Below, piece after piece: positions 18,558 through 44,289 of a stretch of 64,000 nucleotides of DNA. The notes beneath the pieces were generated by a model. The model saw only the letters and a program-made list of their open reading frames with translations, searched no databases and had not been told where the DNA came from. Both the position numbers and the translations under genes were made by a program. Each line of letters begins with the position of its first letter. Positions within the stretch are counted from its first letter, which is position 1. Location of the stretch: positions 32,675 through 96,674 of the forward strand of contig UZAN01040020.1 in assembly GCA_900618425.1 (NCBI GenBank), written 5' to 3'. This DNA comes from Echinostoma caproni. Its lineage: Eukaryota; Platyhelminthes; Trematoda; Plagiorchiida; Echinostomatidae.

Positions 18558-18600
18558 ATGATCTTCCAGCTGAGTGTATCTTTCATCCTATCTTTGGCAT
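18558..18600 (+). CDS. Gene A exon 1: signal peptide
   Basis: ATG-initiated, encoding MIFQLSVSFILSLA, a short hydrophobic signal peptide. It ends in phase 1 at T, before the donor gtaagt at 18601. The TATA-like box upstream supports this start. Confidence 0.75.
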
Positions 18601-21600
18601 GTAAGTCTTAAGCTCACATAATTATTTGTTTCAACGTAAGCACTATGAATTTGGTATACTACTCAACTGCAAAAAATGGTGCCTAATGAAAGAGGTTCGT
18701 ATATCTGGCACACATAAACCAATTCAAAGTCCACATCCTGCCAAAATAGACCATTTTGATTTTCAAGTAATGTTTCGAATTGCACAGATATGCTGATCCA
18801 AAATAGGCACTAATTTTCTGTCTATCGAGGTCATAGGTATTTGTTAACTAACTGAAAAAAAACCGTGAGCGTTCAATCAATCACAAGTCAAGGTGAAAAC
18901 ATTAGTCCCGAATTAAAAGGATTTCGCGATACACAAAACTATTGCCCCGGGCATGTTATAGAGGTTTTGAAAAACCCGGACAAACAAAAATTAATTACTA
19001 TTTAAACCTTTTGATTGCCAGGTCGTTATTCATTCCTATGACGTCACAGTTCACATGACATTCTGAGAGTATACGAGCACGTGTTCACATCCAAATCACT
19101 GCTCAATTTTACGAACTGATTAGAAGCACGTAAAATCGGTTGTTTCTTCCATCCCATTTATCCCCTTTTATCAGATGTTCAAGCACAATATGGTAATTCA
19201 ACTAATTGAATGCTGCTTCCATCTCCTGTTTGTGATAATTCTAACCCCATTATCGTTCTGACTGTGTCTCACGTAACGACAGCTGCGGTCATGAAACCAC
19301 ATCAATGTGTTTTTTCACTAAGAGTTATTTCTTTTTTACACTCCAGGCTATCCTAACTATTCAAGTGAGTTCACTTGCCGGTTAGTTTTGGTGTGGAGAA
19401 GTGCCATTGTGAAAAATAACTTATTGCAATGTATTTATTTAAGTAATTAATTTAATTAATATGAGCAAGCCATACACTGTATTATAACCAATTCATTGAT
19501 TGTGTTCACAGCATCTCTAATTCATTTAGAAACGTACTTTTGCGCAGCGTGCTCAACGGTCACTTCAGTGTTTGGCACGACGTGTTTTGTCGTATTGCTC
19601 TCATTATATTACATTAGGCTTATAGTCAACTATGATAAAAAAGGAACAAATTGGCATACACAATCTCTCTTCCTTTTCTTTATTTCTGTAAGATCCCCAC
19701 GGGTCGTACAACCAGTATCCAGGTATGTCACTCAACGATATGTATTTTTGCTTTGCGTAAATGACAATAGAATTTAAAAGCTAGAAATTCGTTTCGTTCA
19801 ATCAAAATTGTATGGTAACCTCAACTTCAGTGTATTTGTGCTTAGTTGTATGAGATCATTAATACTGCTTTTGATTTGACTATCATTTATTTAGGTCTTG
19901 CTTATTTCTGAGAACCGAAAGACTGCAGATTACTTGAGGCAGCCTCTTGACAATCTCCAGTAGGTTATTTTGATCAGTCACTTTTGGAGGTCGTACAAAA
20001 ACACAAGCTTTCATTAGAAATTTCCTGTATCCCGATCCAAGAATAGTTCGTAAGTCTGAGTACCGTGGACACGCCATGAGAAGTACGAACCGAGGAAGGC
20101 CAGCGCTTTTCGAATGAACGCTCTATGGGCTTACCTGAGAACTGGGGCCGTATTTTTACTGCAAATCAACTTCAATCATCCAACGATAGTCTTCCAGCAA
20201 AATAAAACCCGATTGCCAAAAATGTTTAGTATTGATCAGAATGCAGATTGCCATCATTCTATTTATACCGATATTACCAACGGTTTTAAACATAACAGTA
20301 AAATAATTTATGCTTAATTCATGTGTTTTTCGATCTAAACCCATCGGAGCAAAAGCTTATACTGTGGCTAGCTTTCACGCTCACTTTTATAAACATGATG
20401 GTACCGGCAGCGTGTTTGCTGAACTCCCGTTTGTTATGTGCACGTAAATATCCTTGTTCGTTTCACTTGAATCTGTGATGTTACGGTTATGGCGTATTTC
20501 CGATCACTTTTTGTTGAAACATTCTTATTGTCATAAACATTACTCCAACAAATTCCGAAATTAATATGTTTTTCTGTATATTGATTTAGGCTATTACGGA
20601 AACGGAAGTGAGTATCTGAGATGAATTATTGTGTCATATAGTTCGGTCTAAATCTGAATCATTTCACAGCTTATCAAGGTCAACTTAAACACAATGTAGC
20701 TTTTCACACATCGGGATGTGTGGTGAAACCAGCAGATTAATTCACGTGACCCGATTGAATAACGCATTTCCTCCTGACTAGTAGCACGAAACCGCAAAGG
20801 CTATTTGTTGCTTAAACGGAGTTGAAGCACAGGGAGCTTAATGGAGTTCGATGAGAAAAGAATGACGAGTAATGAAAAGATTTTCCCTTACAACCAAGCT
20901 GTCTTTATGTGGATAGTTGTTTGAAGATTTATCTTGGGATTTGCACATTTCACCTTGTCTCAAATGTTCATTCGATGAACCTTGGTGACATCTAGGAAAA
21001 TCCTGTCGGGGCAGTCAGCTGACATGCTAACTAATGGATGCCACATGCCTCTGTAATTTGGATGGGTAATTCGAATTTGAAAAGATCAGTGCTATCGGTG
21101 TGGCCTCGTAGCTCAGCTGGTAGAGCATGCGCGTAAGGAGTGTGGGCGGTGTCCATGCGTGGGTTCGAATCCCACCGAGGCTGCTGAATTTTTCACAATC
21201 CCAACCTAAATCTTCAATCTGCCAAACAACCATTTGCCCAATTTCTATTGTAAATCAACTTGGGGCATATGGAACCAATCAACTTTCAGGTGTTTGAGAT
21301 GATTTAGATTAACCAAACAAATTTATTTTTTGTGGAATCAAACTAGGATTAATCAGGTTCAATCCCAAAACACTATAGTCATATTGAATGAAGGATAGGA
21401 ACAATCAATGTTTTCCCTCTCGAAATACCCGGAGTATGCGGTTCAGATGGATGCCATACTGTAGACATTTAGCTTTAGGGTTTAAAATGTCTGGACGACA
21501 TTGTTTGTCTGAAATCTACCAAGAATTTTGAGGTTCATTTCGGAATTGACCATTTATTTGCCGTAAATCAACAATTAATTGAATGAGCTATGGAAAACAA

Positions 21601-24600
21601 AAATCAGTCATTGGAACTGGTATGGTTTTCTACGGGTGCGTGCATTGGTCTTTTTGGATAGCCATGATTGTCTTAATCTCTACCAGTGCACGTTTTACTT
21701 CTGGATAGCTGATTTGCCTGCTAAAACGATATTGCTAATTATCTAACTTATGTGATCAAATAGGTTTCGCTTGAGTGTTTTCGGGCAATGAATAACATGC
21801 TTGCCATAGGAAATAGCAGTTCGGTGTTTGCTTGGAAATGCATCAACAAAGTCATTCATCTAAACACAACTGTCGTTGAAACAATGCATCAGTCAAAGTG
21901 TTATTTTACCCAAGTCCAGGGGAAAAACGTTCATCACAGTAGTACTAGTAGTCAAGGTCACATCTTGAGAGACATATTATACACACGGGGTGATGAGGGC
22001 AGTGGATTTCGCTGACCTAAAATCCGCATCAAATCTCGTAGATCTAATATGGAACAGGTAGATATACACTGTCTTAGAAGAGGGAAAGGTTTTCCGATCC
22101 ACATTAACACAAAAGAAGTGATGTTTGGCTACAACACCAGCGTATAGATAAACATTTTATGGAAAACTAAAAACGAAATATATTTGTGATGAAAATATCA
22201 CATTTATTGAAATAACTTTGACCGAAATTTGATTGGCTCTTTTTTTGTGTGAATCAAGCGCGGAATGACTTTAGCAAGAGAGTGCTTTGACATCCCACCG
22301 CTGGTCGCCAGATCAGATTTGATGAATGATGAGCGGTGTATTTCTTGACACATTTTACCATCCTTAGATTACCGCATATAGCCACAACGGTCATAAATTG
22401 TCTGATTCCTACATTTATACTTATTCACGAAATCTTTGTCAAGAAATACCGTAAAAACCGTCAATATTTGTTCTATTGCGTCACATGGCAATAATTAACT
22501 GAAGTTGCACTTTACAGGTTACGGAGGATACCCAAGTGAGTTTATTTGGACAGAATTAACGTTTTCAAAATGTTCTATGAATAACTGGTCGTTTCTGTAA
22601 ATGGTACACACAAGAAAACCGCAACCGAAAATCACATACAGAACAGTTTCCGGTTTCCTGCATAAGTTAAGAGATCTGTCACAAAAATCAAAATGTTTTG
22701 ACTTGTACAATTTACATTTAGTCAATGTAACATTTTTGTTCTGTTCTATTCTGGTGAAAAATTCTAAAATAATCGTGTGCTTCAAACCGTGGCATTTTCA
22801 TGTCTGTCCAATTTGGAGTTAATCATGGACCATTAATCGGGAACAAGTCATTTATATTGCTGTATTTTGTAAGCAGCCAAACATATCATTGATTTAAGTG
22901 ATTGAAAAAACCTGAACAACGAAACAAACGGTGCATTCATGTTCCCCTAGTGAGATGGAAAACCATGGCTATGATGAATACGCATCACTTGATGATAGAT
23001 GTGTTTCCAAAATATTATCAATATGCTTCTTGCTAAGATTAATTTTTTTTTTACACTCAGGCTATCCAGGCTATTCAAATGAGTTTGATGGCTGGTTAGT
23101 TTATTTTGTGCAGAAAAGCGGAGTTGTGCAAACCCTCTTGAATAAAAATATTCATCTTGTATGAAACAAGTATACCCGATAATAAAACCAAGTCACCGAG
23201 TACTCCCTAGTCATTTCAGTGTCTACTATCGAAAGTTTTATAGTTCTGCTACCTCTGCTTTTACCAAGTGTTTAGTTATTTGGCAATTGGTTAATTAGGC
23301 TGACTCATTTGTAAGAAAAAGCAGCTGAAGTTGAACCTTGCAGTGGAATAAACGAATTTAAATGCTCGACCCTCCATCCTCTTCTTTATTTCCCTAAGAT
23401 CCTCCCGGGAATTACCCGCAGTATCCAAGTAAGTTCATTTTTAAAGAGAGAATGTATATTTTCAATAACGTCCATCATTGCAGAAAATGTGATTTTATTA
23501 GTGTGTATTAAAGTGTTGCTCACGATATGGAATTGTGGTTACGTGGAATAAACGAACCTTATTTGGGTTATATCACTGTTTAAGTCATTACCAGGACATG
23601 GCAGACATTTAAACAGTTTTCCGTCAATTCTTCCAGTCAACCAGTGTGTGTGTGCGCGGTTTGGCGCTTGAGTACTGCAAGCTTTATATGCAAAGCTTCG
23701 AACCAATTAGGGAATGTTTACTATGGATCTGCTTCGAGCGACGCGGAACGCAAATTGAGTGCTTTTTGAGAGTACTATATATCTGAGAGGAACGAAACAT
23801 TCTGTTTTAGGCATAAGTTTGCTTTATTCTCATCTCTAGTCAACCTCATTCAAGCGATGCACATCATTTTAGATATCATATACATTGATTTTGAGCGATT
23901 ATAAACAATTGCGTAAGACCCTTTCTACTTTGGAATATGTTCTCCAAATGTACCGTGTAGGTCAACCCAAGTAGTTGCCCCCTACCCCGCCAGAAACTGA
24001 GTGTTTCTGAACCGGAAAAATTAATAGAGACGGTCAATGAGTCCCAGTGAGAGCAGAACACCTCTCGTTGGTCACGCATCGAATATTTTATTCCTCAAGT
24101 AACTGAATCGTTGAAGAAGCCCACCCAATTCCACTGCATCTAAAACCTTGTTCGGCCTATAGAACACAGTGAAAACGAAACCCGATATTCCCATTTCACC
24201 GAAACCATAGTGTACTGTCTGAAACAGTTCAAATGTTATGCTACGAAATTGAGTTAGTTAGTAATATCCGAATGGGATATTTATGAAAATCACAGTTGCG
24301 TTATTTGCGTTTGTGAATGAATGTAAAATTTAAGAACTTTGCAATATTATACCTTTATACTCTGTTTCAAATCAGGCTCAAACAAAAGTAAGTCCATATG
24401 TTGAGGTAATGAACTCGATCAATATTTTTAATGCCTAACTGATGTGGTTTTTAAGAGAAATTTCACAATTCCATAGATACAACAACTTTGTGGTCACCTT
24501 ATTCATTTTCATTTATTATTAAAATCTAACTAAATAATGTGATATTTAAATCTGATGGATTTCGTTTTCCAAGATGCCCCTATTTGTACTTGATTAGTAT

Positions 24601-27600
24601 ATGGTAACCAATATAGCAATGTAATATTTTATCAACTACTCATTAACAGGCCCACAAGATGAAATCGTTTTGAGACCCACACACACCGTGTTGTCATCTA
24701 AAAACCAATGACATCGTTGTGTTTCTCATTTTATTGATCACAGATAACAGTGGTTCATACTATCGTAAGTTTTTTTTTCTCAAATCGTAAAATATTCCCA
24801 TTGACGCATGAAAACAAAGTCAAAACGCGAAGAAATTTCTTTTCGATATCTCGCTTCAGGTATTGACATATATAGTTTGATTAGTCAGTAGATTAATACA
24901 AGGCCTAGGCTGATGTTGAATCAATGTCTGTGTGCAAAGTTATCTGTTGACAACAAGCTGTGGGATCACGATAATTGACATTGGACATTGGTCTTCGTCG
25001 TATGGAGGATGGTCACATCGAACGAAGAATATGCCGTAAGTGCACGTGGATTGGACAGTACACAGATTTTCAAAGCTTTGTCCCACTGAGATACAAATGG
25101 CATTAAGGGAACTGTTTAGCATGCAGGGCAAAGAGAATTTGTAGTCCGGAGACTCTGACCGAAGAGTTGACCTATACAAAAGACATCCTCAAGAAGAACG
25201 GATACACAGAGGCGTCTATTCGATGACATATGGAATCGAAACCAACTGATGCAAAAGTACAATTGGCAAGAAAGGTGTTTGCCAACGTTCCCTTCAAAGG
25301 AGACAAGGAATTAGAAATCCTGGAATATCGGTTATCCAAAGCCATTTCCAAATGTTTTCCCGCGGCGTATTTAAGACTCCCATCCAGGACTAAGCCATTC
25401 ATTGTTCAACAACTTAAAGATAAATTGCCCCATCAGTCCCAATCCTTTGTTCTATATCAGTTCACGAGCACTTGTAGTGCTCGTTATATCGGACACACAA
25501 CGAGACGTTTGTCTAAGAGAATATCTGAACACTGTCCGACCGCCCTTCGAAAAGGAACAGTGAGAAGCCTAAACAGCTCAATTCTGCAACATTTAGGCGA
25601 CAGTGGACACAGGATTGACCCAGAAACATCATTTACAAATTTCTTCACTGCACCTAAGAATCACGCCAAAGGATTACGTAGAAAGATCCTGACAACTGTG
25701 AAAGCCATAACAATTACGATCATGAAACCGGATTTGAGTAAGCAACGTTATCTGGTTCAGGCCCTGATGTTACCATGTTACCCGTATCCCTATGTGACAC
25801 CTATCCTCTCTCTTCCATTTCCCCCAATCCCCATTCGCTATCATTTTCTAAAACGTTCACACCTGTTTTATTCACTCTGGACTAACACATTTCATATCAT
25901 CACCAGTTCACAAATTTTTCATTCCACTTTTCTCTATCCAATTATCGTGATCCCATTGCTTGTTGTCAACAGATAACTTTGCACACATACATCCAATCAA
26001 CATCTGCCTAGGCTTTGTATTATTCAACCGACTAATCGAACTATATATGTAAATGTCTGAAGCGAGATATCGAAAATAAATTTTTTTCGCGTTTCCACTT
26101 TGTTCGTATCGTAAGTTTATACAACCAATGTGTTGATGTAAATTCTCTACTGAAATGATATCATTGTCGGATAAACTTTATCAAATCTTGAGTTTTTGGT
26201 TTTATGAACCTTGACATTTTCTGGCACTATTAATCTTATAAATCAATCATGAAAGAAGAAGGGCAGGTCTTGACAAGCCAGTGCGTAGGAACGTTACAAG
26301 GTCAATCGAATACAGCGTCATGGTGCAAAAAACAACCTGGCAATGTTTCACCGAATATTTTGTGACTTCATGAGTTATGCCCAAACAAACTGCAAGCCAT
26401 CCACGAAAGCTCCGTGGTTGCTCCAGTCATGTTGTTGTCACGTCTATTTACTGGAGTAGGGAGGTCACTAAGATTTATTTTCTGGGAACGCGAGTAGTGA
26501 TCTGCGTGCGTATTGGAAATTTCTGATAGTACCCTGATTGGAATGTCTATTCGGTCAAGCTAACCGATCGATATTAAGCAACAGGGAAACTCACAAGTTA
26601 GCAGGTCACGATTCGGATAAATAGTGGACGATGAAAATTGGCCTGACATGCAAGGCTTTCAGAATGAAGTTATCTGTGGCCGCTGATAATTTTGTTCTCC
26701 TGCAGGAACGTGAGCATTATGTAGTTGTTTTCTGATAAACTTCTTGATTACTGAGATTCGGTTCCCTGGGTTCGAGTTACACAGGCAAGCTCTAGCAGAG
26801 TGAATGCAGCTGGTCAGAGATAGACCCAACAGTGCAGCACTTAAGAGGGCGCTTTTGTTTAATCATTGAATACTGGGATATAACAGAGTCTGCGACTAAG
26901 ACAGATCACCTAGTATGACTTATATTGCAACAATAGGTGAGGTGTTTGGCATATCAAGATAAAGCCTTGCTTTTGAGGCAAAGACTGATTGTTGAGAAAA
27001 TTTTATTTATTCAGTCTTGCCGAAATGTCATATGTTTAAGTGGATTGTAACATAGTAGGTTACCATAAAATCCAAACGTTGCTTTTCTTCCGGCCTTCGC
27101 AAAATACATCACAGTGTCTACCCTTACATTTCGATACCATTATCTTTATTTGGCTTTTGCTGCAGCGAAACATTGATGTTCAGTTCAAATCAAACCGGAA
27201 AAGTAGTTTTGATTCATGACGTAAAAAGAAGTAATCGATACAACAATTAATTTAAAACAACCACTTATTCCTCCTGTTACATCATGGAAAATATGCAAAA
27301 TAACGTTTCGATGCATTCAATTTGTCATTTGATATTTCGCTATTCTTTCCTTTATTGTTGAATCTTCCTAAAACAATCGATCAATCATATGGCAATATGA
27401 TATCGAGATATCAATCGGCTCCCAAACACACACTGTTCTTATGCATCGGCCAGGAAATTCCACTTTGTAATCTATTGCATGTGGCAATTCGCCAACTGGT
27501 AAACTGGGGGTGAATCAGATTTCGTTGACTGCACCCAGTTGGAGTGCATAATGTTTCAGGCACCGTTTTCCATCGGAACAATATGTGGATACATTGATGA

Positions 27601-30600
27601 ATGTGGCGAATGTGATTGGAAAATCGACAAAATATCAGGTCTTCGGGGAAAAACGTCCATTCCATAAAAGAAAACGTTGTTTTTTGTTCATTTGAAGTTT
27701 GTGACAACTAGTAGATACGATGTTCAATATACATGCAATATGCTATATGGTTCAATCAGTTAATAAAGACCTACTACCTTGAACAAAAAAGAAAGCAGTG
27801 ACCTTTTGCAGACGTTATGCACAAGATTTATAACGCATCTTTTTCTCACTCGTTTCTTCATTCCATGGAAACCGCGCCTTCGTAGCTAACACAGTCCTAT
27901 GTGAGTTTTGACATTTTAACCTTTTTTGTGGATTTCTTGTGTTTTTCATCCCCAATCAAATAATGCCCACTGAAAGATAAAATGCATTGTTCATAGTGGA
28001 GCCGTCTGTTATCAGTCGTCATACCATGGTTTAAAAATATGAGTCCAAGTAATCGAAACACGAACGTCTCCACAGACTGGAACATCTGCGGTTTTATTAA
28101 TTGTTGAGAATTCGTGATGTGAATCACAAATGCGTCTTTTCCATCAAACTGAATGAACCACTGTGGTGCGACTGGAAACGACACCGGCATTGTGATAATC
28201 TGATTCCTTTTAANTAGTCTACTTGTTTGAAGCGCGGCTCCAGAAATGCGGTTAAAAATACCCTATCCCCGAAAGATTCGAAGGATATAATCTTGAGTCT
28301 CAGTTTCCATGCTTTGTTTGATGTGCTAATTATATTAAACTAGTTATTTCTGAACAAAAGATAGGTTTGTTTCTTCGAATTTCTCCCAATTAGGAATTAA
28401 ACTGAACAAAATGCACTATTTTATTCATCCACCAAGTGCGCAGAACCAGCATACAAATAAATTTAAACCAGCACTTTTTATTGGAATATGTTTTAGCTGT
28501 ATGAACAGGTACACAAAGCCCAATTCAAACAAAACATGAACTGGTGAAAATATTCGTTCTTAGTTGTTTAAAATCATACCATCACATCGCAATCATTTGT
28601 TCATTCGTCATCCGATGAGGAGAAAAAGCGATCTTGGGAAAGAGAGCATTCCACATCTAAGAAAAGTAGGATTGGTTTTATAATGATGTCGGGGATAAAA
28701 CCCACGCAGCTGATTATTTTGGTCTCAAGATGAAAACAAACCTATTCATAATAATGTCTCCGTAATTATATATATATGTATATATATATAGTGCTTTGCT
28801 TGCTAGCGTTGGTGGTCCGGTGGCAAAGATCATCAAATTATCAACCCCGAATGACGGAGGTTCGAAACACGTTTAATCAACATTGTATCACGGTCTATGC
28901 GTTAAAAAAAAGAAAACGAAGAAAAAATTTGATTACAAAACACTGAAAAAGAAGCTGAATTACCGATCTGAAACGTTTTATGATTTCCAAATATGATCTA
29001 CTGATCCCAGTTTACTTCGTCACAACACTACTGATGTTGGCTTTATTCAATATTTAAAAGCATCTTACCGTCATTCCGTTTCACTTAGTCTCTTGGTATT
29101 CTCAAATAACCACTAAGCCAATCACTTCTAACGATTTGGCTGCATGCGGTAGCAAACCGTCTGCCCTACCGATTGTGTTTTTGTCATGTTCGTGCTTATT
29201 GAAGACAATTTTGCTCTAACAGAACGCACGTTATCAATCCTTTATACTGTACTTTGATAAGCGTTTTATAATTAACATTGCATCTTTCAGTGGTTTATGT
29301 TACCGGAAAACCATATTTCAACAAACATTCCGTGTCAATCACTAGTGAAATGAAAAGAGTGGGTTCAACCGCATATGTGAAACTACAAACCGAATTATGT
29401 CAGACCGTAAGTACAACATATTGCATTGTGAAACAAATGGGAGTTTGTTTGGATGTTTACAAATATGTATAACAAAAGGGAGTATTTTCTACTGACTATA
29501 GAAAATTCATTAGTTCAGAACTAACTCGTACATAATGAAAATATGTTAATCAAGATATACGTTTTCTGAACGGTTTTGATAAGATCCTTCTGGGATAAAT
29601 CTACCTTCTTTGCGCCAAACAATGATTACTTCACTACACCCTAGTGATTTGCATATACATGTCGGTTCATTACTACCCCTCTATAACTTCGTAATCATAC
29701 TGCCCCGTGTCGTTCGTGTTTCAAAACACCAGTAGTTTGTGCAGAAATAACCTACTGGTATTTGGTAACAGAAGTAACACTTGTACAGACTGGCCCTGAG
29801 CTTTCTCGGGGAGCCATATCACTTTGTTTCCATAGAAAAACAGAAGTTCTTCAATGACGGTACGGTTTCGAAATGTTGCATAAACACATTCGCTTAGTTT
29901 CCCCATAAGTCCAAAAGACTACTGAAGAGATTTTTATCACCAGTCATCTTAAATCCTACACATAGTTCTCAGTAACAGGTTTCATTGAATGAAACTATTC
30001 CTGTGAGACAGAAAGCACGATGTTCGGCAAGTAGGTCAGCGGGGGGTTGTTGATTTTGACGAGAAATAACTCCAAAACGTGGTTTAATTTAGTTAACAAA
30101 CATTGAGCTGACCGTAAACTGATGGAACTAATCTTGCCACAACTTATTCCCATGCTTTTTTCCTTTTTGTAGGTGGCCTATGGGGTTTCATCGGACTCGG
30201 CTCTGTCGAAGAGTTATTCGTCTTGCCAAATCTCTCGAGTTTTATCGGAGAATGTTGAAACACGCCTCGGGTTCAATGGATACGCTTTGAAACAACAGAA
30301 ATTGGATATCAGATCATCGACATTCTCCAGTCGGCTGAAAAAGGCTATTCTCAGTTATGCACCTTCCAGTTTCTACTACTATGGTGTTATAACAAAAATC
30401 AATGGTAAGGGTCTGTTGAAAGAAGGCTTATTGCGAGCAGTACGATGTTTTACGAAGAGCATTATGATAGACGAACGTTTTCAGCTTTATAAACAACTTG
30501 AGTCCTTTTTCATTTATCCTTGATTTATAACAGGTGTAGATCGTAATTGTTTCAACTCCATTTTGAGCAGTGGTCTAATTCTCGTGCTGACAGTTTTCGG

Positions 30601-30616
30601 AAGGACTACGTTCTAA
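18558..30616 (+). CDS. Gene A: micro-exon gene encoding a secreted or surface SEA-like protein (~206 aa, spliced)
   Basis: Proposed coding exons are 18558-18600, 19347-19364, 19693-19722, 20590-20607, 22518-22535, 23399-23428, 24376-24387, 24744-24764, 29291-29406, 30173-30404 and 30534-30616. Each has an AG acceptor and GT donor, and joined they give 621 nt with no internal stop. The order is a signal peptide, seven micro-exons encoding Tyr/Gly/Pro/Ser/Asn-rich tracts, then two larger exons. The larger exons begin VYVTGKPYFN and contain a conserved Cys pair and a YYYG strand near the end, laid out like a SEA domain. The last exon has a hydrophobic stretch (LILVLTVFG) before the stop, fitting a GPI-anchor signal or a membrane tail. 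Gene B, 7 kb downstream, is a clear paralogue with the same exon phases. The architecture is that of flatworm micro-exon genes, but I cannot name a specific MEG. No role beyond a secreted or surface protein is claimed. Confidence 0.75.
19347..19364 (+). CDS. Gene A micro-exon a (18 nt)
   Basis: Acceptor cttttttacactccag, donor gtgagt. Phase 1-1, encoding (x)YPNYS. Its surroundings are duplicated at 23061-23078. Confidence 0.7.
19693..19722 (+). CDS. Gene A micro-exon b (30 nt)
   Basis: Pyrimidine-rich acceptor ending ctgtaag, donor gtatgt. Phase 1-1, encoding (N)PHGSYNQYP. Paralogous to the micro-exon at 23399-23428. Confidence 0.7.
20590..20607 (+). CDS. Gene A micro-exon c (18 nt)
   Basis: Acceptor ctgtatattgatttag, donor gtgagt. 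Phase 1-1, encoding (G)YYGNG. Confidence 0.65.
21103..21181 (+). repeat. tRNA-like sequence (SINE head or tRNA pseudogene) in a gene A intron
   Basis: Acceptor-like ends GCCTCG/CGAGGC, a D arm GCTC-AGCTGGTA-GAGC, and a T arm GTGGG-TTCGAAT-CCCAC are all present. The 31 nt between the D and T arms cannot form a normal 5-bp anticodon stem and 7-nt loop, so it is unlikely to be a working tRNA. Intact A and B boxes suggest a tRNA-derived SINE or pseudogene. Confidence 0.6.
22518..22535 (+). CDS. Gene A micro-exon d (18 nt)
   Basis: Acceptor gcactttacag, donor gtgagt. Phase 1-1, encoding (S)YGGYP. Confidence 0.65.
23061..23078 (+). pseudogene. Gene A relic micro-exon e with broken donor
   Basis: A strong acceptor (ttttttttttacactcag) precedes GCTATCCAGGCTATTCAA, the counterpart of micro-exon a. 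The donor reads atgagt where the paralogue has gtgagt, so the invariant GT is lost. The following intron sequence also matches that after micro-exon a (gagtt...ggttagttt). It is probably skipped, since joining d to f keeps the frame. Confidence 0.65.
23399..23428 (+). CDS. Gene A micro-exon f (30 nt)
   Basis: Acceptor cttctttatttccctaag, donor gtaagt. Phase 1-1, encoding (N)PPGNYPQYP, paralogous to micro-exon b. Confidence 0.7.
24376..24387 (+). CDS. Gene A micro-exon g (12 nt)
   Basis: Acceptor ctctgtttcaaatcag, donor gtaagt. Phase 1-1, encoding (S)SNK. At 12 nt it is the shortest proposed exon. Confidence 0.55.
24744..24764 (+). CDS. Gene A micro-exon h (21 nt), at a PLE insertion
   Basis: Acceptor ctcattttattgatcacag, donor gtaagt. 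Phase 1-1, encoding (N)NSGSYY. A PLE sits immediately downstream, and TATCGTAAGTTT (24761-24772), which spans the end of this exon and its donor, is repeated at 26107-26118. Confidence 0.65.
24761..26118 (+). mobile_element. Penelope-like element inside gene A, best-preserved GIY-YIG copy (PLE-E)
   Basis: The longest frame (25230-25976, 248 codons) carries the RT end (VPFKGDKELEILEYRLSKAI, then PAAYLRLPSR) and a GIY-YIG endonuclease core. Its marks are SFVLYQFTSTCSARYIGHTT, RRLSKRISEH and a C-terminal IMKPDLSKQ. The RT palm is missing, so the element is 5'-truncated. A single stop separates an upstream in-frame piece (about 25158-25226, EELTYTKDILKKNGYTEASI). The 3' end at 25939-26106 is repeated inverted at about 24809-24977, shown by VIP(L/Q)LVVNR read from both arms. 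About 36 extra nt lie between the left arm and the proposed target duplication TATCGTAAGTTT. Confidence 0.85.
27889..27903 (+). CDS. Possible additional gene A micro-exon (15 nt)
   Basis: CTAACACAGTCCTAT lies between a cgtag acceptor and a gtgagt donor and would keep frame and phase (PNTVL). The pyrimidine tract is some distance away and no paralogue exists in gene B, so this is only a candidate and is not counted in the ~206 aa. Confidence 0.25.
28765..28790. repeat. (TA)n microsatellite
   Basis: Alternating TA tract interrupted by one TG, about 26 bp, in the intron before the 116-nt exon. Confidence 0.8.
28803..28875 (+). repeat. tRNA-like SINE fragment in gene A intron
   Basis: GGTGGTCCGGTGGCAAAGATC followed by 'gaggttcgaaac' gives A- and B-box-like spacing and matches the 15785 and 52184 elements in layout. 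Confidence 0.5.
29291..29406 (+). CDS. Gene A exon: first half of SEA-like domain (116 nt)
   Basis: Acceptor catctttcag, donor gtaagt, phase 1 to 0. It encodes VYVTGKPYFN, then MKRVGSTAYVKLQTELCQT. The gene B exon at 40146-40261 has the same length and phases and shares V-x-TG-x-PY, SI, the Met, SxxY and the Cys. Confidence 0.8.
30173..30404 (+). CDS. Gene A exon: second half of SEA-like domain (232 nt)
   Basis: Acceptor cctttttgtag, donor gtaagg, phase 0 to 1. It includes SYSSCQISRV, then SRLKKAILSYAPSSFYYYG and ITKING. Paralogous to 41666-41900. The Cys near residue 15 is conserved and may pair with the Cys at the end of the preceding exon. Confidence 0.8.
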
Positions 30617-30625
30617 ATCCAAGTG
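30534..30625 (+). CDS. Gene A terminal coding exon with hydrophobic C-terminus
   Basis: Acceptor gatttataacag. It encodes VDRNCFNSILSSG, then LILVLTVFGRTTF and a stop at 30614-30616. A donor gtaagc begins at 30626, exactly 9 nt after the stop, as in gene B. A 3' UTR exon may begin near 30745 after tcgtttttcag. Small residues followed by a hydrophobic end suggest a GPI-anchor signal. Confidence 0.65.
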
Positions 30626-31722: not shown

Positions 31723-31825
31723 CCTGACAGGAACACAAAAAGTACGCACTGCTGACGAGTTCCAAACAGGACAAAACAGCTGTCCAGTGCTCTTTGTCGG
31801 TCATCACAGACATTTCCATTCCATT
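31723..31825 (+). repeat. tRNA-derived SINE, partial copy
   Basis: Matches the body of the 51672-51955 element (gacaggaacac, aagtacgca-tgctgacgag, acagctgtccagtgc, tttgtcggt-atca). The tRNA-like head is missing or decayed. Confidence 0.7.
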
Positions 31826-33839: not shown

Positions 33840-34130
33840 ATTCAATTTTTTGGAGGTACCAGGCACTCTTGATGGTCTTGGGTGTGAATTTCACTCTTTG
33901 GCAGATCGTTCATTCCCCAAAAGTTCACGTATTTACATGCGATAAAAATGTTTGTGATAACCGACTAATAACATAGGATAGTTGTTCCGTCCTGTTTGGG
34001 GGACTTGGTTGCAGTGGAGGTACTGTTTTTGTGTCCCTGTCAGGATTCGAACCGCGAACTTTCGGGTTAGGACTTCAGACCCTTATCCGTGAGCTACACA
34101 CGGTTGCGTATAGACGCATTCAACTAGTGA
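33840..34130 (-). repeat. tRNA-derived SINE, near full length
   Basis: On the - strand the head has TAGCTCACGGATAAGGG (A-box-like), then GGTTCGAATCC (B box). The body has gacagggacac, aggacggaac, gtcggttatcacaaacatt and the tail gaccatcaagagtgcctggt. The same order is found at 44495-44757 (-) and 51672-51955 (+). Confidence 0.75.
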
Positions 34131-36825
34131 GGACACATCGACTATATAAGGAATGAAATCCTCAACCAAGACCATCAACCGTACCTGGTGCCCGTAAAAA
34201 ATTGAATGGATCAATTCAAATTTACTGCTTCAAAACTTTGGAATAATGATGAAATAATGAGAATGTTTGACTTGATTTATTTGGGCATTTGATTGTGTAC
34301 AAAACGAGCTAAGCAAAGCTATCGCGTGAAACAGCAAAGTATGAGCTTAGGCTGATACTTAAACGTAACCGAAAATTCTCGGGGACAATGTTGGCCAATA
34401 CCCGTCAATCAATTGTATGTGTTGAGTTAATTTGCTGTACATCTGGAAGACTGATTTAAAAGCTGAACAGATGAGGTAATTCTTCATGGCAGAAATCGCT
34501 TCCCAGTTAAGTTATTGAAAAGGGTTACAGCTCACAGGACCCAATTTCGACACCATGAATCAAATTGCTTACAATGTGTTTTAGTGTGTCGCAAGTGTGT
34601 AAACCTGGGACAGTAATAACCAAATTAATCTCCAGGCAGGCGTTATTGGCCCTAACGCGAACTCCAACAGCTTTACGTTGCCTGAGCGTCAAACACATTT
34701 CACCACAAGACAAAATTCATATGAAGCAAAGGTAGTGCATACAATCTTGTAGGTCAGCAAATCAAGTAATCGATCCGAAATTCACTAAAGATCCAAATCC
34801 CAAGTTAAGTGGATGAGCAGTAGTTGAACGAGAGAAGCAAAGGCACGGAAACGTTTTCAGCAACTTAACTTGCTCTTAGTTGTTTTCGAATTGCCTCTTT
34901 ATGCTAACCGAGCAACGCACTATGTATAATCTGTTGTTAAAACGGAACAATGAAGCAACGCATTAGCTGGTTAACAACATACACAGACTACATGTACGGA
35001 CTTGTTCGGAAGTCGACCAGTCGATTGCCAAATGAGAAACTATGGACAAAACAAGTGGTATGAGCTTGTGTGTGTGATTTGTTTGACGAGAGAGCAACAG
35101 CAACAAAACAATGGGTAGGCAAACGTGATGATACTCACAACATCATACAAGAGCGAGAGAGAAAACATTCGTGATCCTAGACACGTTTGATGACACGGTG
35201 ACCATAGTCTTCTCCAACGAGGATGCACTTTGAAATGATAGACGTAAATGAGTCTCGCTAACGTCACAGTTGGCTATCTGAGTCACCGTGAAACTGATAT
35301 GCAGCTGCACGAGATGGAAATAGACTGATTCAACTGCACCTCACCCTACCCTGCTCACTTTCACTTTCCGGTTCAACACAGCTCTCTCTCTATACGTAGC
35401 ACAAGTTGACGCCTTGGTCGACTGGAACAAAACATCTGCTGAAAATATGGCAGACATATCAATAGGTGTCATTCGTTGGTCATCCCGATGAGGACAGATG
35501 GAAAAGAGAAAAGCATTGAATCGCTTGATTTTGTTCACCAGAGGAGATCAGGAACTTGATGAAATGCAATAGGTTGCAAGATAACCGTCATGATAGGTTA
35601 CAGAGAATAGCAAACCAAGAGCAATCACTTATCAGTGCAGCAAACGAATGTTGCTGATGGTCCTAAAATCTCAGCCGCCTTAAACCTTCAGCAGACGTTC
35701 TTCTCAACACCTCGCGGATCTTGTAAAAGGCAACAGCAAGCTTGCTTAACACATGAACTGTGATTTAAGTTTTTTCTCATCACCATCTTTGCATTAGTTA
35801 TAATACATTAATGACGTGAGAAGGTCAAGGTATCAAAAACCTTTGGGGTTCTCAGTGAAATGCATTTGATTGTATCGATGTTGGGGAATGAATTAACTGT
35901 CAAAAATATTTATGTCTACCAAAGTAAAACAATAACAACACCTTGCTCGTAATTTAATGGGACAAAATAGAGCGCATCTCATGAAGGGGATAACATTTTC
36001 CAGTTTTAATAATTACTTAGGCGAAGCTGTCTAGCCATTCGTAAAGGAGATGACAAATGTGGATGGCACTACTTCCAGACTTGGTTCACTAACAGGAATA
36101 GTTCTGATGAACCTATAGCTTCGCGGACATTTGGTCCGTGTCAAAGTCTGCTGTATGAGAAAGGCTAAGATGACTCATTTTGTCGATGAAGACAAGCCCA
36201 AATGGCAGTATTTCTTGAAAGTGTCATTTACTTTGTTCAGGAATGTGTCACTTGGGATGAAGGGTGTACAGAAACGCCGACAAAAGTGTTTCTGTAGGTG
36301 AACATAAGCAGAATTGATGAATAAAAAGGGATCCAATTGCAGACGATCTTGTTAGGGTAATTGCCTTTAAATGTGAATTTTAATTTTGGTCTATCACGCT
36401 AGTTTGAGTCTGACAGGGCCTAGAAAAGAGCAAGTACATGTCTATCACAGGGTTCTACATTTTCTGGTGTCCCTTTATCAAACGTGTATTCTACAAATAA
36501 TGTTTGATTTCAACTGTTTTACTTCAAACTCATATTTACACATAACTTCTGTTTTGGGGTCAGATTATTGATGAAAAGCCGGCTGAGAAACGTACCATCA
36601 ATTTCGAGTTCGCTCCGCATAGTGTTCAAATGAGAATGAACAGTGTACAATCGATAAAAGGCTTCAGAATGTCAAAATTCAAGAATTTTGTTCGCCAACC
36701 AGGGGGTCGAGCACGCTCGATTGTAAATAACATGCGGTCCTCTGAATAGTATCGATTTGTAAGTCATAATTATCAAATGTGTTTTCAATGAAAACCTTCT
36801 AAGATGGCAAATGTTTCCACCAGCC

Positions 36826-36905
36826 TATTCGATTTTTCATAGGCACCAGGCACTGCTGACGATCTTCGATGTGCGTTTCACCTCCTTGGGAGATCGTTCA
36901 GCCCT
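36826..36905 (-). repeat. tRNA-derived SINE, 3' fragment
   Basis: Matches the tail of the family (aggcaccaggcact...gtttcac...ttgggagatcgtt on +). The tRNA-like head is absent. Confidence 0.65.
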
Positions 36906-37478: not shown

Positions 37479-37536
37479 ATGGTCAACATGCTTCACCTAC
37501 TTCCGCTTGTCCTGTTAGCTACCTCGGAAACGGCAG
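37479..37536 (+). CDS. Gene B exon 1: signal peptide
   Basis: Encodes MVNMLHLLPLVLLATSETA, with a likely cleavage site at the end of the exon. Phase 1 donor gtaatt. The ATG is the first in frame. Confidence 0.75.
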
Positions 37537-40500
37537 GTAATTCCGATATTTACGAACGTGGTTCAAATTTCCAGTGCATAGTTTTGGGGAGCAATCTTTG
37601 CAGATATACTGGTTTTTATACTAACAAAACGTTATTTTACTTGGAATGTTTTTATTCAAGTTAATGACAACGTTTTATACATTGTTCATGTACACAACTT
37701 TGTGGCTAACTGTGGAAGTTGTGTTCACTCCAGTACGAATGTGGGGTTTGCATTTCATATTACTGACAAAAAAATTAAAATATGAGAAAATATATAAATA
37801 TGTCTACACATCCGATAAGTCTGCTTTGATTGGTACTCACAATTTCAAAACTATTTGATTTCAAATTGTTGGAAACCTAATAATTGTGATTTGTTTGTAA
37901 TACGAATACCCGAGTGCGAATAGTGAATTCATAGACTTTATCTTCACATACCCATCCACACAGGAGGCTTGCTGTAGACTGGGATTATCCTTCTTCTGCC
38001 ATTCAAGTCCATGGTGTAATGGAATGACGCTGGATTGTGGAAGGTTGAGGCTGAAGGGGAATTATTGGCAATCCCTTACACGTATCTAGCCATAATTTCT
38101 AACAGTAGACGACACTAATATATCCTAACATTATCAGGTGACTTTCAGTGAGTAATGGAGCCGAGAGATTACCGTAGAGACTCTCAAATCAGAGAAAAAT
38201 CGGCGAAAATTTCCACGCAAGCTTTATGAGTTAGTGATTGATGCCCGATTTGACGGCTAAAGAATACTTTTAAATAGAGATCTTTTCGTGGAAGGAAACA
38301 CGAAAGTTACTGGTACCAATGTTATTGCTCTGAGGCATTCTTTGCCCTGCTCATTGACCTAAGCCAGATTAAATGGGCGAGAAATGAAGCAGCTCGTCTT
38401 ATGTCTCTTTTTCAGTAATTCATCTATCCAATTGTTAATTGGACGAGTAACTGTGGATTATACTGGAGCTGGATATCCAATAGCTTTAGATGTGACTCTT
38501 AAATGAGCCAGTGGAAATTAAGTTCGTACGAACTCTCCAGCTGTGTGGCAATAGATATAAGGATTGCGCGTACGCGATAGCATAATGAACAATATTTCAA
38601 CCCTAGAAGTGAATAATCACTTATCCTAATACCATGAAAAAGGTAATACAGGGAGGTTCACCAAAGTAAATGTCCTCAAACTTATTCTACAATGCACCCA
38701 AATTCTGGAGTGCTGCTGCTTCTAGTCAATGTTTAACAAAGTCCATTCACAATTCCGTTAATTTTAAGATATGAGAAATAACATATTTGAGTTTATGTAC
38801 CAAATTGATTGATGGAACTTATCTGTTCTACTTTTCTCTCTCAAACAGCTTACGGTTATTATTCGAGTGAGTTCGTAGTTTCCGTGTGCTAAAGTGTTTA
38901 TCATTCGTCGGTTGCTCTTTCAGCTTACATCAATAGGCTACCGTTAAATTTTCCCTCAGCAATTTCTCCGTTCCCGCCATTTGCCTCCTACAAATTTGAT
39001 TACGTGGTAATTGACACAATCCTGGCTGTTTTTTACAACCTTTATACCTTTGCTTGGCAGCTGATTGTAAATTGTAATACACAAGGCAGCCAGAACTACA
39101 GACCATCATTGCTCAATGTCGCGCCAACGTTCCCCGGGCAAAATTCAAGTTTTCATTTTATTTATCCACATTCTGTAAGGCTCAAGCTATTTATCTCAGA
39201 GGACTTGGACGCTGCTATATGTTGGCATAGCAACTTGGATATGGATTATATAACAAACCAAATGAAATCTATCCGATGGAGTTATGATCTGAAACCTCGA
39301 TATCTTCGAAAATGAAATTTTCATTACAAGCATCATGCTGGATAGAAAACACAATAAATAAATATAGAGAGTTTCATTTTTATTCTCAAACATCACTACT
39401 CCTTTGGAAGAACGAATACTGCTGTGCATCAGGCCACTTTAAATGTCATTTCCCAAGTGAAACTAAGATCCAATTTCCCCACTCGTTATGCAGCTTCCTT
39501 GGGTTTGTAATTCCGCCAGATGCACAGACCGGGCTCCCTAAGCTCAAAGTTCTAACAACTGATAGTTCAGAATTCCGAAAATTATTGACCTTTTGTAATA
39601 AATCTAATTTCAGACTCTTCCACATCTACCGGTGGTTTACCTGCAACATCGAGTAAGTTTTTTTGTTTTGTCTCAATTTTCATTTCCTTTAGCATTAATT
39701 TTAGAGCAAATAAATATTGATTAACACATTTTTTATAGTCAAATAGAAAATGTTACCAGCCTTATAACCATTTTGATTGTGTTTATCACAAAGCATGACT
39801 TGACATCTAGCTTGCACAACCGTATAGCACGTAGACCAGTTCATGTGCAACCTCCTTCAGTAAACTTGAACTGCTCTAAAGGGTAGTTATTAGGTGCGAC
39901 TGGTTATCAGCAATCATGTTTGAGTAATTTGCGTTGGTCATTTGATGTACGCATAAATGTGTACGGTAGAAAACAATGATAATGATGCACATTAGTGTTT
40001 GTTCATTCAGTTATTAAAAGTGTCCAATGAAGTCAACATCAAGTAAACAGCTGCAGGAAGATTTGCCGCATCTTTTATTTGCTGGTCCAGATTTCCATAA
40101 CGGCTATCTGATCTAATTTTACCCCATTCCTCCCTTCCCAATTAGTTGTGCGTCTTACTGGAGTGCCTTATCAGAATGGGAAACAAACAAGCATTTCAAG
40201 TGATATGCGAAAAGTGAACAGTAAGGAATACTTGCTGTTAGTCGATCAAATATGCGCGAGTGTAAGTTCCTATTTCCACTGGATCTCTTTGGTACATGTT
40301 GAAGGGTAAACTGTGACTAACGGTTTGTTCCAAGCCCTCCTAATACAGCTGAATTTAATTTAGAGTAAGGTATAGCTCTATCAAAAGCGTAACTTTATAC
40401 GCTATCTCCTGCAGAGAGTAGAGCTCATCTGTTCAGACGACACATTAAAGGACGAACTTGAACTATAGTGAGAAGACCCTTACTGGAAAATGACTATCCT

Positions 40501-43500
40501 GAGACGTTTATCGACCGCAATTCGACTGCCCACAGAAGCCAATAAAAATGCAGCAAGCAAAGAAGAAAATGCTTTTTATAAAACTACCATTCAAAGGTTA
40601 TGTCACCACTGAGAGGGTCAGTAGAGTTTCATCCACAGCTGTAAAATCTACATTTAATGCTGCTTAACTAAGATGTGTGTTCTCTACGTCATCAAGCCTC
40701 TAATGCTACAACAAAGATAAACTGTCTAGGTTGACCTTATCTGTGATTGTCTACCCATTCAAGTGCACCTGTGATACGACTTATGTAAGTCGAACGATAA
40801 GGCGCTTGGAATCGCAATTATGTGTGCAAAACAAATTTGTGACGCAACTGTTGTTTCCGTGGTAGTGAGGATCTCACACTTGATACCACTCTACCATAAC
40901 ATGACATGACATGACATGACCTCCACCTCCCTCAACGATCACAACGTTCGGATCAGTTCACCTCCATACCAAATGTTGACCTCACTTCCTAAACAAACAC
41001 AGAAAATCGTCTGTTCATACGACCGTGACCTACCGCCATGATGTAACGACTTTTGTTATGTGATCCAAACAACGCACAACTTTGGAGTTCTCTATGGCTC
41101 ATTGCCACACTTGATTCGTGAAAAAGAATTCAACAAAAAATATGTTTGCCTGTATTGTGTTCTTGATTTATTTCAATGATATGTAGGTTACTGCACGCTA
41201 AAATGATTTACACTCTGTATCTCCCACTTAGTATCTCAGTAATGAAGAGCAATACGCTTCGTCTGGAAATATGCACATCAGTTAATCAAAGGTTTGACAA
41301 ATAGGCAGCATTTTATCTACACAACATATCTACATGCATGAAAGTACTATGTGTCTTCAAAGAGAACAAGTCTATAGTGCCAACAGTAATTTTACTAAGG
41401 CCGCAGATAAAAAATCATTGCCCGAGGTGTTTCCCGCGTTCAAAAAAGTTCTACATTTTTGAAAATTGTGCAGCTTTTTCGTGTATGCTATTATATTTCA
41501 TGAGATTTTCTCAAAATTTTGATTCCCATCATTTCGATCAATAGGGTAGGGGGTGCACTCTAAGCATTTATGCCTTGGAATGTGGTGGGTTTTCTCTTGT
41601 GATTCAGTTTAATCAACCCCGATGAATACTGGAGTGTTTCATTTCCTGTCTTCTTCCAAATGTAGACAAAATTGGCTTTCAGTGCAAATACTGGAATTAC
41701 CAAATCGTGGAGGTTTTGCAAAGGAACGCGAGTAGGACTGGATCACGTGGACACTGAAGTGCATATGGACAGTAGAACACTGTTGGCATACAACATGAAT
41801 CCGCGTACATCTTTATTTCTGAAAACTTTCGAAACAACCCTGGAAAGCTATTCACCAACCAATTACTTCTACTACTACGGGAAAATAACGCAAATTGCAA
41901 GTAAGCTCATTCTCTTACCCCTTTTTCCTTATACCGTGATACTGCGCATTAACTTAGATGTATCTCTCTGATTCAGTGTTAAACCTATGAAGTCCGTATA
42001 ACCCGGGTATTTGCCTTATACATATTTCCAGAAACTACCTCAGCTATTTGGCTTGTTTCAATTGTCCGAATATACGATCCATGCCCATTGTGAAAAAACA
42101 AAAAGTAGCGAACAAGCTCCTTTGCGGTGATTCTTCTATAGGCTAATATATCACAATTTACATCAAACTGTTTGACAGGGGGGAGAGATCAATACAAGTT
42201 GGAAAGAGATAATCAACATTCCAGTTCCATGACCGGATGTCATTCACACTTTGGTCCTCACACATGCCCACTTGTGCTTTGTCAATAATAGTGTGCATCT
42301 GTCAAGACTCTTGAAAGTATTTAATTCAGCTCATCTAAAGATTAAGTATACTCTAGATAACCAAGAGAATGAGCACCTTGCATTTCTGGACGTTCTCCTA
42401 AGCCGTCGATCAGACGGAACTATCCAACGCGCCATCCATCGTACAACAATCAGTGTATCCATTTCAAAAGCTATGTGCCTTTTGGAACGTAAAAGAAACC
42501 TGATTGATTCCCTCGCTCCCATGGCGCGAAGAAAATGTACGGATGATACCATTGATGCAGAACTGAGGTTTATTCGAGATGTTTTCCTTCAAAACGGATA
42601 CCCCGTGCGATTTGTGGACAATATTCTGTGTCGTCATCAGTTGCCAAATAAGACCATTACTGCGGAGAAAAAAGCGGTTTACATATCGCTACCTTTCAAG
42701 GGCGACACGACTGCCGATATGGTGAAGCGTAAGCTCAGTACAGTTGTAGAAAAAGAATGATCTGCAACAAAACCGTGTAATGTGTTCAACTCCAGGCCAC
42801 TTCTGTGCTTTCAAAGATAAATTGCCTGTTTCTGCCGTCTCTTTCTGTGTATACCTATTCACCTGTTCCTGTGGGGCAAGATGCATTGACCGCACAAGCA
42901 GACGTTTATCCAAACGGGTCCGTGAGCATCACCCGGCCTGGTTGAACAGTGGAGTAATTAGGGCCATTAACAGCTGAATCGTTTCACACCTAGTGAAATC
43001 AAACCACGTAATGAATGTGGTCGAGGCGTTTGGNNNNNNNNNNNNNNNNNNNNNNNNNNNNNNNNNNNNNNNNNNNNNNNNNNNNNNNNNNNNNNNNNNN
43101 NNNNNNNNNNNNNNNNNNNNNNNNNNNNNNNNNNNNNNNNNNNNNNNNNNNNNNNNNNNNNNNNNNNNNNNNNNNNNNNNNNNNNNNNNNNNNNNNNNNN
43201 NNNNNNNNNNNNNNNNNNNNNNNNNNNNNNNNNNNNNNNNNNNNNNNNNNNNNNNNNNNNNNNNNNNNNNNNNNNNNNNNNNNNNNNNNNNNNNNNNNNN
43301 NNNNNNNNNNNNNNNNNNNNNNNNNNNNNNNNNNNNNNNNNNNNNNNNNNNNNNNNNNNNNNNNNNNNNNNNNNNNNNNNNNNNNNNNNNNNNNNNNNNN
43401 NNNNNNNNNNNNNNNNNNNNNNNNNNNNNNNNNNNNNNNNNNNNNNNNNNNNNNNNNNNNNNNNNNNNNNNNNNNNNNNNNNNNNNNNNNNNNNNNNNNN

Positions 43501-44280
43501 NNNNNNNNNNNNNNNNNNNNNNNNNNNNNNNNNNNNNNNNNNNNNNNNNNNNNNNNNNNNNNNNNNNNNNNNNNNNNNNNNNNNNNNNNNNNNNNNNNNN
43601 NNNNNNNNNNNNNNNNNNNNNNNNNNNNNNNNNNNNNNNNNNNNNNNNNNNNNNNNNNNNNNNNNNNNNNNNNNNNNNNNNNNNNNNNNNNNNNNNNNNN
43701 NNNNNNNNNNNNNNNNNNNNNNNNNNNNNNNNNNAACATCATACACGACACATCCATCTCTAATGACCCAAACCAGTGTGCACGTGTGAGGACCAAAGTG
43801 TGAGTGACATCCGGTCATGGAACTGGAATGTTGATTATCTCTTTCCAACTTGTCTTGACCTCTACCCCCCCCACTGCCAAACAGTTTGATGTAAATTGCG
43901 ATGTATTAGCCTATAGAAGAATCACCGCCAAGGATCTTGTTCGCTACTTTATGTTTTCTCACAATACCTCAGCTCCATCATATTAAAAATTACAATATTT
44001 GTGAAACGTTGCTGTTTTCTTTGACTGACTACTTTGTTTCACAGTTTAAGAAACACCAAAATGAACATGAGGTGTTTGAACCAAATCCACGCACATGTAT
44101 GTCAACTCTCACTTACTCCCTCGTACTGGCCCGATGCTCTCTGATGGGGAAGGCTAGAGAATCGATTTCTAAACTTTCTCAATTTTTGCTACTTCAGATA
44201 AAGCCCCAAACAAAGGCGCCGGGGGTTTCACACTTCTGTCAGTGTTGGTTTCTCTAATCACACTGGTCCGATTATCGTAA
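37479..44280 (+). CDS. Gene B: paralogous micro-exon gene encoding a secreted or surface SEA-like protein (~182 aa, spliced)
   Basis: Proposed coding exons are 37479-37536, 38849-38866, 39614-39652, 40146-40261, 41666-41900 and 44198-44280. All borders are AG/GT, and joined they give 549 nt with no internal stop. The signal peptide is followed by one Tyr-rich micro-exon (AYGYYS), one Ser/Thr-rich exon, the two-exon SEA-like ectodomain, and a C-terminus with APNKGAGG then FTLLSVLVSLITLV, which fits a GPI-anchor signal or a single membrane segment. The last four exon phases and the sequence of the two large exons match gene A, so the genes are tandem duplicates. Gene B has two micro-exons where gene A has at least seven. 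PLE copies occupy its last two introns. Its specific function is unknown. Confidence 0.75.
38849..38866 (+). CDS. Gene B micro-exon (18 nt)
   Basis: Acceptor cttttctctctcaaacag, donor gtgagt. Phase 1-1, encoding (A)YGYYS, of the same kind as the gene A micro-exons. Confidence 0.7.
39614..39652 (+). CDS. Gene B small exon (39 nt), Ser/Thr-rich
   Basis: Acceptor aaatctaatttcag, donor gtaagt. Phase 1-1, encoding (N)SSTSTGGLPATS, a likely O-glycosylated linker before the SEA-like domain. Confidence 0.65.
40146..40261 (+). CDS. Gene B exon: first half of SEA-like domain (116 nt)
   Basis: Acceptor cccattcctcccttcccaattag, donor gtaagt. It encodes VRLTGVPYQN, then MRKVNSKEYLLLVDQICAS, with length and phases identical to gene A 29291-29406. 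Confidence 0.8.
40380..40890 (+). mobile_element. Penelope-like element fragment in a gene B intron (PLE-F)
   Basis: Broken frames give ETFIDRN, KLPFKGYVTTERVSR, AVKSTFNAA and PFKCTCDTTYVSRTIRRLE. The order is that of the RT end and GIY-YIG core in PLE-E and PLE-G. Frameshifts are frequent. It ends near an (ACATG)n microsatellite (about 40899-40920). Confidence 0.7.
41666..41900 (+). CDS. Gene B exon: second half of SEA-like domain (235 nt)
   Basis: Acceptor cttccaaatgtag, donor gtaagc, phase 0 to 1. It includes WRFCKGTRVGLDHVDTEVHM, with the KGxRV...V strand pattern of SEA domains, then FLKTFETTLES and FYYYGKITQI. Paralogous to 30173-30404. Confidence 0.8.
42087..43965 (+). mobile_element. 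Penelope-like element in the last intron of gene B, inverted arms, gap inside (PLE-G)
   Basis: Coding (42251-42760) begins just past the RT palm: HLSRLLKVFNSAHLKIKYTL, LAFLDVLLSR, LRFIRDVFLQNGYP and SLPFKGDTTADMVKRKL. After a frameshift the GIY-YIG core SFCVYLFTCSCGARCIDRTS, then RRLSKRVREHHPAWLNSG, follows to 42977. The canonical YIG reads CID, so the nuclease is damaged. 42087-42275 is repeated inverted at 43777-43965. The element is 5'-truncated, headed by an inverted 3' end, and dead. Confidence 0.85.
43034..43734. other. Assembly gap (701 N)
   Basis: Gap inside PLE-G, between its GIY-YIG part and its 3' inverted arm. Confidence 1.
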
Positions 44281-44289
44281 CTTTCACAG
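44198..44289 (+). CDS. Gene B terminal coding exon with hydrophobic C-terminus
   Basis: Acceptor tttttgctacttcag. It encodes KAPNKGAGG, then FTLLSVLVSLITLVRLS and a stop at 44278-44280. A perfect donor CAG/gtaagt follows 9 nt after the stop, the same spacing as gene A, implying a 3' UTR intron. The downstream UTR exon was not located. Confidence 0.7.

Follow-up and report, generated by a model that had tools for sequence, protein, structure and literature searches.

The micro-exon genes (MEGs) of schistosomes have been defined by a central coding portion made up mostly of micro-exons under 36 bp (PMC4671649), and the available excerpt of PMC4350168 describes them as restricted to platyhelminths. 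An account from 2014 (PMC4413821, in its accessible part) holds that they seem to be present in tapeworms as well and that none carries a known domain, while relatives of MEG-4, 8 and 9 are reported from Trichobilharzia and, in the accessible text of the same report, not from transcripts of Fasciolidae, Opisthorchiidae or cestodes (PMC5825161). A second described system is the SjCP3842 family of Schistosoma japonicum, located in tegument and gastrodermis, which binds glycosaminoglycans and heme and contains a SEA domain of about 120 amino acids (aa) that was found by modelling and has little sequence likeness to other SEA domains (PMC3886910, available part). In this study, we compared both systems with two split genes, A and B, which lie in a stretch of 64,000 nucleotides from the trematode Echinostoma caproni (contig UZAN01040020.1, called C1077 below; the whole stretch is referred to as the window).

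We propose, with a probability of roughly 0.7, that A and B belong to a set of eleven or more paralogues for small, probably membrane-anchored extracellular proteins that consist of a splice-variable stalk, a SEA-type domain and a hydrophobic tail. The initial annotation had suggested an undescribed family, which could not be fully upheld, because S. japonicum is known to have a family of SEA surface proteins whose exons are repeated and alternatively spliced, as far as the available text of PMC3886910 and PMC3434034 goes. By description, the members SjCP3842, SjCP1084 and SjCP1531 of that family are the proteins which ours resemble most closely (PMC3886910, PMC3434034, both in part), a resemblance that falls short of proven membership. 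It is nevertheless quite possible, although we lean against it, that the genes of the window are ordinary members of the SjCP3842-type family, in whose description the exon repeats are not called micro-exons, a term absent from the accessible main text of PMC3434034. That text gives 27 UniGene entries, alternative splicing and one locus in which the similar exons 5 and 6 recur five times in tandem. Its six listed signal peptides (MRIINL... type; shared form MRIINLV...LLQTKS in its Table 1), on the other hand, are unlike those of A, B and the paralogues P, Q, R, S and T when compared by eye, and the available part reports no homologue in any other organism and considers that the family possibly arose de novo. 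SEA-domain proteins have also been noted in Fasciola juveniles (PMC9203882, PMC9518905, accessible parts). No publication joining 'micro-exon' and 'SEA domain' was found in a literature search, the spelling 'microexon' not having been paired.

Exon anatomy of genes A and B

Gene A (18558-30616, +) comprises 11 coding exons and gives a conceptual protein of 206 aa, and gene B (37479-44280, +) comprises 6 coding exons and gives 182 aa, both open to the stop codon. Borders were re-derived from AG/GT sites and phases, and the introns of both models have AG acceptors and GT donors throughout. The exons are listed in order, in window positions.

18558..18600, +, gene A exon 1, start codon and predicted signal peptide MIFQLSVSFILSLA, 43 nt, ends in phase 1
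19347..19364, +, gene A micro-exon YPNYS, 18 nt, phase 1-1
19693..19722, +, gene A micro-exon PHGSYNQYP, 30 nt, phase 1-1
20590..20607, +, gene A micro-exon YYGNG, 18 nt, phase 1-1
22518..22535, +, gene A micro-exon YGGYP, 18 nt, phase 1-1
23399..23428, +, gene A micro-exon PPGNYPQYP, copy of the exon at 19693, 30 nt, phase 1-1
24376..24387, +, gene A micro-exon, 12 nt, phase 1-1
24744..24764, +, gene A micro-exon NSGSYY, 21 nt, phase 1-1
29291..29406, +, gene A 116-nt exon, part 1 of the SEA-like domain, phase 1 to 0
30173..30404, +, gene A 232-nt exon, part 2 of the SEA-like domain, phase 0 to 1
30534..30616, +, gene A terminal exon, stop codon and hydrophobic tail, 83 nt
23061..23078, +, extra copy of the micro-exon at 19347 within a block duplication, GT donor absent, excluded from the gene A model
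37479..37536, +, gene B exon 1, start codon and predicted signal peptide, 58 nt, ends in phase 1; missed by the signal-exon scan, which filters out its donor
38849..38866, +, gene B micro-exon YGYYS, 18 nt, phase 1-1
39614..39652, +, gene B small exon SSTSTGGLPATS, 39 nt, phase 1-1; under the composition cut of the micro-exon scan
40146..40261, +, gene B 116-nt exon, part 1 of the ectodomain, phase 1 to 0
41666..41900, +, gene B 235-nt exon, part 2 of the ectodomain, phase 0 to 1
44198..44280, +, gene B terminal exon, stop codon and hydrophobic tail following NKGAGG, 83 nt

The two proteins share 31% identity over 134 residues (E 3e-22 in a one-against-one comparison), which together with the re-derived borders bears out the initial annotation of two split genes with a common exon plan and common phases. 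Since both models are open and have AG/GT sites, a pseudogene reading was dropped. Two details were revised: the further micro-exon copy at 23061 was kept out of the gene A model for want of a GT donor, and the coding part of gene B was corrected to end at 44280. The block containing the former is part of a duplication in gene A, in which 19301-19400 and 19671-19728 recur at 23017-23115 and 23377-23434 with 78% identity; micro-exons have multiplied, at least once, through duplication of a short exon-intron block.

All nine small exons (seven in A, two in B) are symmetric and of phase 1-1, as had been claimed for a frame-neutral architecture. Signal exon, micro-exons and 116-nt exon all join in phase 1, the last of these ending in phase 0, so that any subset of micro-exons could be skipped without altering the domain; counted from the exon phases, this amounts to 128 frame-neutral subsets in A and 4 in B. 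For comparison with chance, we searched for symmetric exon units of 12-39 nt that are bounded by an acceptor and a donor, have an open phase-1 frame and consist of Y/G/P/S/N to at least 65%. Gene A (10.7 kb) contained 7 such units, whereas 200 dinucleotide shuffles contained 0.23 on average and never more than 2. A third gene on the contig, Z, gave 8 units against a shuffle mean of 0.215 and a maximum of 2, two of these units sharing one donor and one being only 12 nt long with a weak donor, and seven stretches of control sequence (both strands, 107.5 kb in total) gave none. Just one exon of gene B passes the composition cut, which, it must be said, was chosen after the exons had been seen.

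From these phases, different stalks could be made by splicing with the protein left intact. Alternatively, the genes may be constitutive, with small exons that are always included and a fixed Tyr/Gly/Pro-rich stalk free of splice variation. We consider this possible but doubtful: skipping in A and B is read from the genes alone and gene B has just two small exons, whereas every small exon of both genes is frame-neutral and the donor-less duplicated copy shows that the number of exons can change over evolutionary time; neither fact by itself shows skipping.

Hydropathy gave hydrophobic N-termini in A and B and hydrophobic tails in all six terminal exons found across the family, in agreement with the hydrophobic terminal exon of the initial annotation. 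The hydrophobic C-terminal end measures 26-27 residues and closes 3-9 residues after the best hydrophobic stretch, which would suit a tail of the glycosylphosphatidylinositol (GPI) signal type or a transmembrane (TM) segment without cytosolic tail.

Several other elements lie in or near the two genes. A tRNA-type match (48.1 bits) is found at 21102-21183 (+) within an intron of gene A, and in its long intron, at 24830-26086, inverted-repeat arms of 148 nt (89%) flank an open reading frame (ORF) with a weak GIY-YIG match (E 0.007, below cut-off), possibly a Penelope-type fragment. The window further contains three type I hammerhead ribozymes (31746-31790, +; 51762-51806, +; 53011-53055, -; 46.9-48.3 bits, above the Rfam cut-off), the first of them about 1.1 kb downstream of the gene A stop. 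The last intron of gene B holds inverted-repeat arms (42087-43965, 92-93%) with an N gap at 43034-43734 and an ORF of 175 aa (42233-42760) that has no Pfam match. Dispersed repeat copies at 33816-34098 and 44468-44748, the latter beginning about 190 nt past the gene B stop, are 82-88% alike over several segments; a further relative, at 36822-36881, is shorter.

Eleven or more paralogous genes

Searching the genome (426.5 Mb, in which the window is C1077:32675-96674) with single exons yielded at least eleven members on 7 contigs, a lower bound: A, B and Z on C1077, P and Q on C1706, S on C4626, R on C8487, T on C9584, V on C11908, and W1 and W2 on C4759. What had been annotated as a tandem pair thus belongs to a series of three or more genes on its contig. 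A distance of 1.2 kb separates the end of gene Z from the left edge of the window; the exons of Z and the domain exons of V, the member with the best SEA score, are given in contig positions.

C1077:28412-28506, gene Z domain exon 1, 95 nt
C1077:29898-30129, gene Z domain exon 2, 232 nt
Ending at C1077:31506, gene Z terminal exon, 80 nt
C11908:6633-6748 and 7519-7762, domain exons of member V (loci L047 and L051)

Upstream of these exons, gene Z has phase-1 micro-exon candidates rich in S/Y/P/G, e.g. SSSNKAPYP, GSSSYPTG, GSIKYPSYT and DSDYFPSYS; a signal exon was looked for upstream and not found, C1077:1-8335 reading N. The first domain exon is 116 nt long in eight of the nine genes where it was found, Z being the ninth with 95 nt, and was not found for W2 (about 3.8 kb upstream scanned) or W1 (about 0.8 kb scanned). 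Second domain exons measure 232-244 nt across the family, and the paralogues on the six other contigs agree with A and B in their exon phases. A conserved cysteine column falls on residue 18 in the 11 aligned second domain exons, where for R the acceptor, one of two possible, was picked to give that exon length with Cys at residue 18. Terminal exons, found in six members, are 83 nt long in A, B, P, Q and S and 80 nt in Z, and that of R was looked for and not found. In P, Q and S, each signal and terminal exon given is a choice from several candidates, with the 83-nt length as one guide for the terminal ones. Candidates for small exons of phase 1 (21-39 nt) are present in P, Q, R, S and T as well, where they are fewer and less Tyr/Gly-rich. 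Weak exon matches at C8011 and C10573 were inspected and dropped, the one at C10573 containing a stop.

Comparison of R with T over 81 codons of the second domain exon gave a nonsynonymous divergence (dN) of 0.147 and a synonymous divergence (dS) of 0.564, and the domain is therefore under purifying selection in these two members; as dS was not estimable for A-B, A-Z and P-S, the estimate covers R-T only and no gene of the window.

Relation of the ectodomain to SEA domains

Taking the family as a whole, a relationship of the ectodomain to SEA is supported by sequence comparison. Five of nine whole ectodomains matched Pfam SEA (PF01390), with E values of 3e-5 for V, 3.4e-5 for R, 2.3e-4 for T, 0.0042 for P and 0.032 for A, and these matches share one register, in which the protein from residue 12-16 onward corresponds to the profile from position 10-13 onward. 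The strongest evidence for such a relationship is a motif at the SEA cleavage position, where five of the eleven members carry G-S-V-[LI]-A: R and T read WAKHGSVLAHS, and the set of V, W1 and W2 reads WLKPGSVIASV, WAKPGSVIAQT and WAASGSVLAQA. According to the available part of PMC6954182, the loop that joins strands 2 and 3 of self-cleaving SEA domains has the sequence G-S-V-V-V or G-S-I-V-A. The other six members, including A and B, are without the G-S-V motif and two residues shorter at that site, and a branch with 95/95 support separates the two groups. Two family cysteines, one per domain exon, are kept in eight of the nine ectodomains and both absent in V, which retains the G-S-V motif and the best SEA score despite this loss; the joint loss fits a disulphide between the two.

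A number of observations weigh against the reading we propose. No member reached the curated SEA cut-off of 26.4 bits (V 24.5, R 24.3 and A 14.8 bits), and whole ectodomains of B, Z, Q and S had no Pfam SEA match. None of the six second domain exons (of 11) that were scanned alone against Pfam matched SEA, and the whole protein of A did so at E 0.09 only. For the ectodomain of A, SEA was moreover outscored by YaiO (E 0.0037), a family at chance level, so that a single match of this strength means little and the repeated register counts instead. Among PDB sequences, the family profile (alignment A7) found no SEA chain, the best match being a dynein roadblock light chain (E 0.11). Outside the domain, the calls of signal peptide and tail are made on hydropathy only, the small-exon candidates of P, Q, R, S and T lie outside the chance comparison, and the 83-nt agreement of P, Q and S is not independent, because these terminal exons were chosen partly by that length.

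Further searches returned little. As a control, MUC1 scored 50.5 bits against Pfam SEA (E 2.4e-13). Alignment A4 matched dynein roadblock chains only among PDB sequences (best E 0.78), nothing was found there for the B ectodomain or alignment A3 at E up to 10, and PDB matches of alignment A6 and of member V were taken as chance. In the protein database, the whole protein of B matched 0 of 76 candidates (E up to 10), and alignments A3 and A7 matched 0 of 353 and 0 of 203 (E up to 1). Searching the E. caproni genome with PF01390 gave nothing, as did control genomes, which renders this search uninformative. A query for cox1 was negative too.

That the ectodomain is another small alpha/beta domain, SEA-like through convergence, would agree with the sub-threshold Pfam scores, the PDB matches without SEA and the weak roadblock light chain match, yet is improbable given that SEA is matched in one register by five distant members and that G-S-V stands at the cleavage position in five. 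For the SEA-like ectodomain of the initial annotation, support extends to the family and not to B taken by itself.

Proposed protein plan and comparison with known systems

We propose that the signal exon directs secretion and that the signal peptide would be followed by a short Tyr/Gly/Pro/Ser/Asn-rich stalk from phase-1 cassette micro-exons, with the SEA-type domain (about 116 aa, two exons, probably disulphide-held) sitting beside the hydrophobic end. Length and sequence of the stalk could then be set by splicing while the domain stays unchanged, a membrane mucin plan in miniature. In the G-S-V sub-family, self-cleavage could lead to a shed, two-chain protein, while the protein of the window sub-family (A, B), being without the cleavage motif, should remain whole. 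These natural sub-families with and without the motif allow a direct comparison of shedding and retention, and a family that unites phase-matched micro-exons with a SEA-type domain, in which the stalk would vary through splicing and the domain stay fixed, offers a testable structural basis for MEGs and for the S. japonicum SEA family. A wider reading, which we regard as rather unlikely, is that MEGs and the SEA proteins of fluke tegument and gut form one old lineage, in which a cleavable SEA surface protein would have gained cassette micro-exons between signal peptide and SEA domain, lost its cleavage site in one branch and given rise to splice-variable, mucin-like coat proteins. If true, some micro-exon genes would have a recognised domain, although MEGs had been described as having none.

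Membrane mucins such as MUC1 and MUC16 have a variable extracellular N-terminal part, a SEA domain near the membrane and a hydrophobic anchor. The present family would have this plan in common with them and carries the G-S-V motif in R, T, V, W1 and W2. Unlike in MUC1 and MUC16, the stalk is short and built from cassette micro-exons, a sizeable cytosolic tail is absent and A and B have no cleavage motif; in sequence, the likeness to membrane mucins is at sub-threshold profile level only.

Compared with schistosome MEGs, as described in the accessible parts of PMC4671649, PMC4350168 and PMC4413821, A and B likewise have symmetric exons in their central part, most of them shorter than 36 nt, that could be skipped without frame shift. 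By hydropathy, the 5' exon of each would also encode a signal peptide, and the products may be secreted or anchored in the membrane, as in MEGs. They differ in that micro-exons are a minority of the coding sequence, with 24% in A (7 of 11 exons) and 10% in B (2 of 6 exons, one of them 39 nt). Neither gene therefore has a central coding portion made mostly of micro-exons, unless that term is applied to the part that separates the signal exon from the domain. The assignment to a MEG family thus stands as regards symmetric micro-exons, which all nine are, and does not extend to the strict definition.

Unlike the SjCP3842 family, in the available descriptions, the window genes A and B are without a G/S site, and the signal peptides differ. 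Both are multi-gene families with a signal sequence (predicted in ours), a SEA-like domain of about 120 aa and two conserved cysteines, which in our case are kept in eight of the nine ectodomains, judged by presence rather than matched position. A G/S cleavage site is shared with part of the present family, some SjCP members have a C-terminal TM segment, and exons repeated in tandem together with alternative splicing, described for one SjCP locus, would be a further feature in common with the genes reported here.

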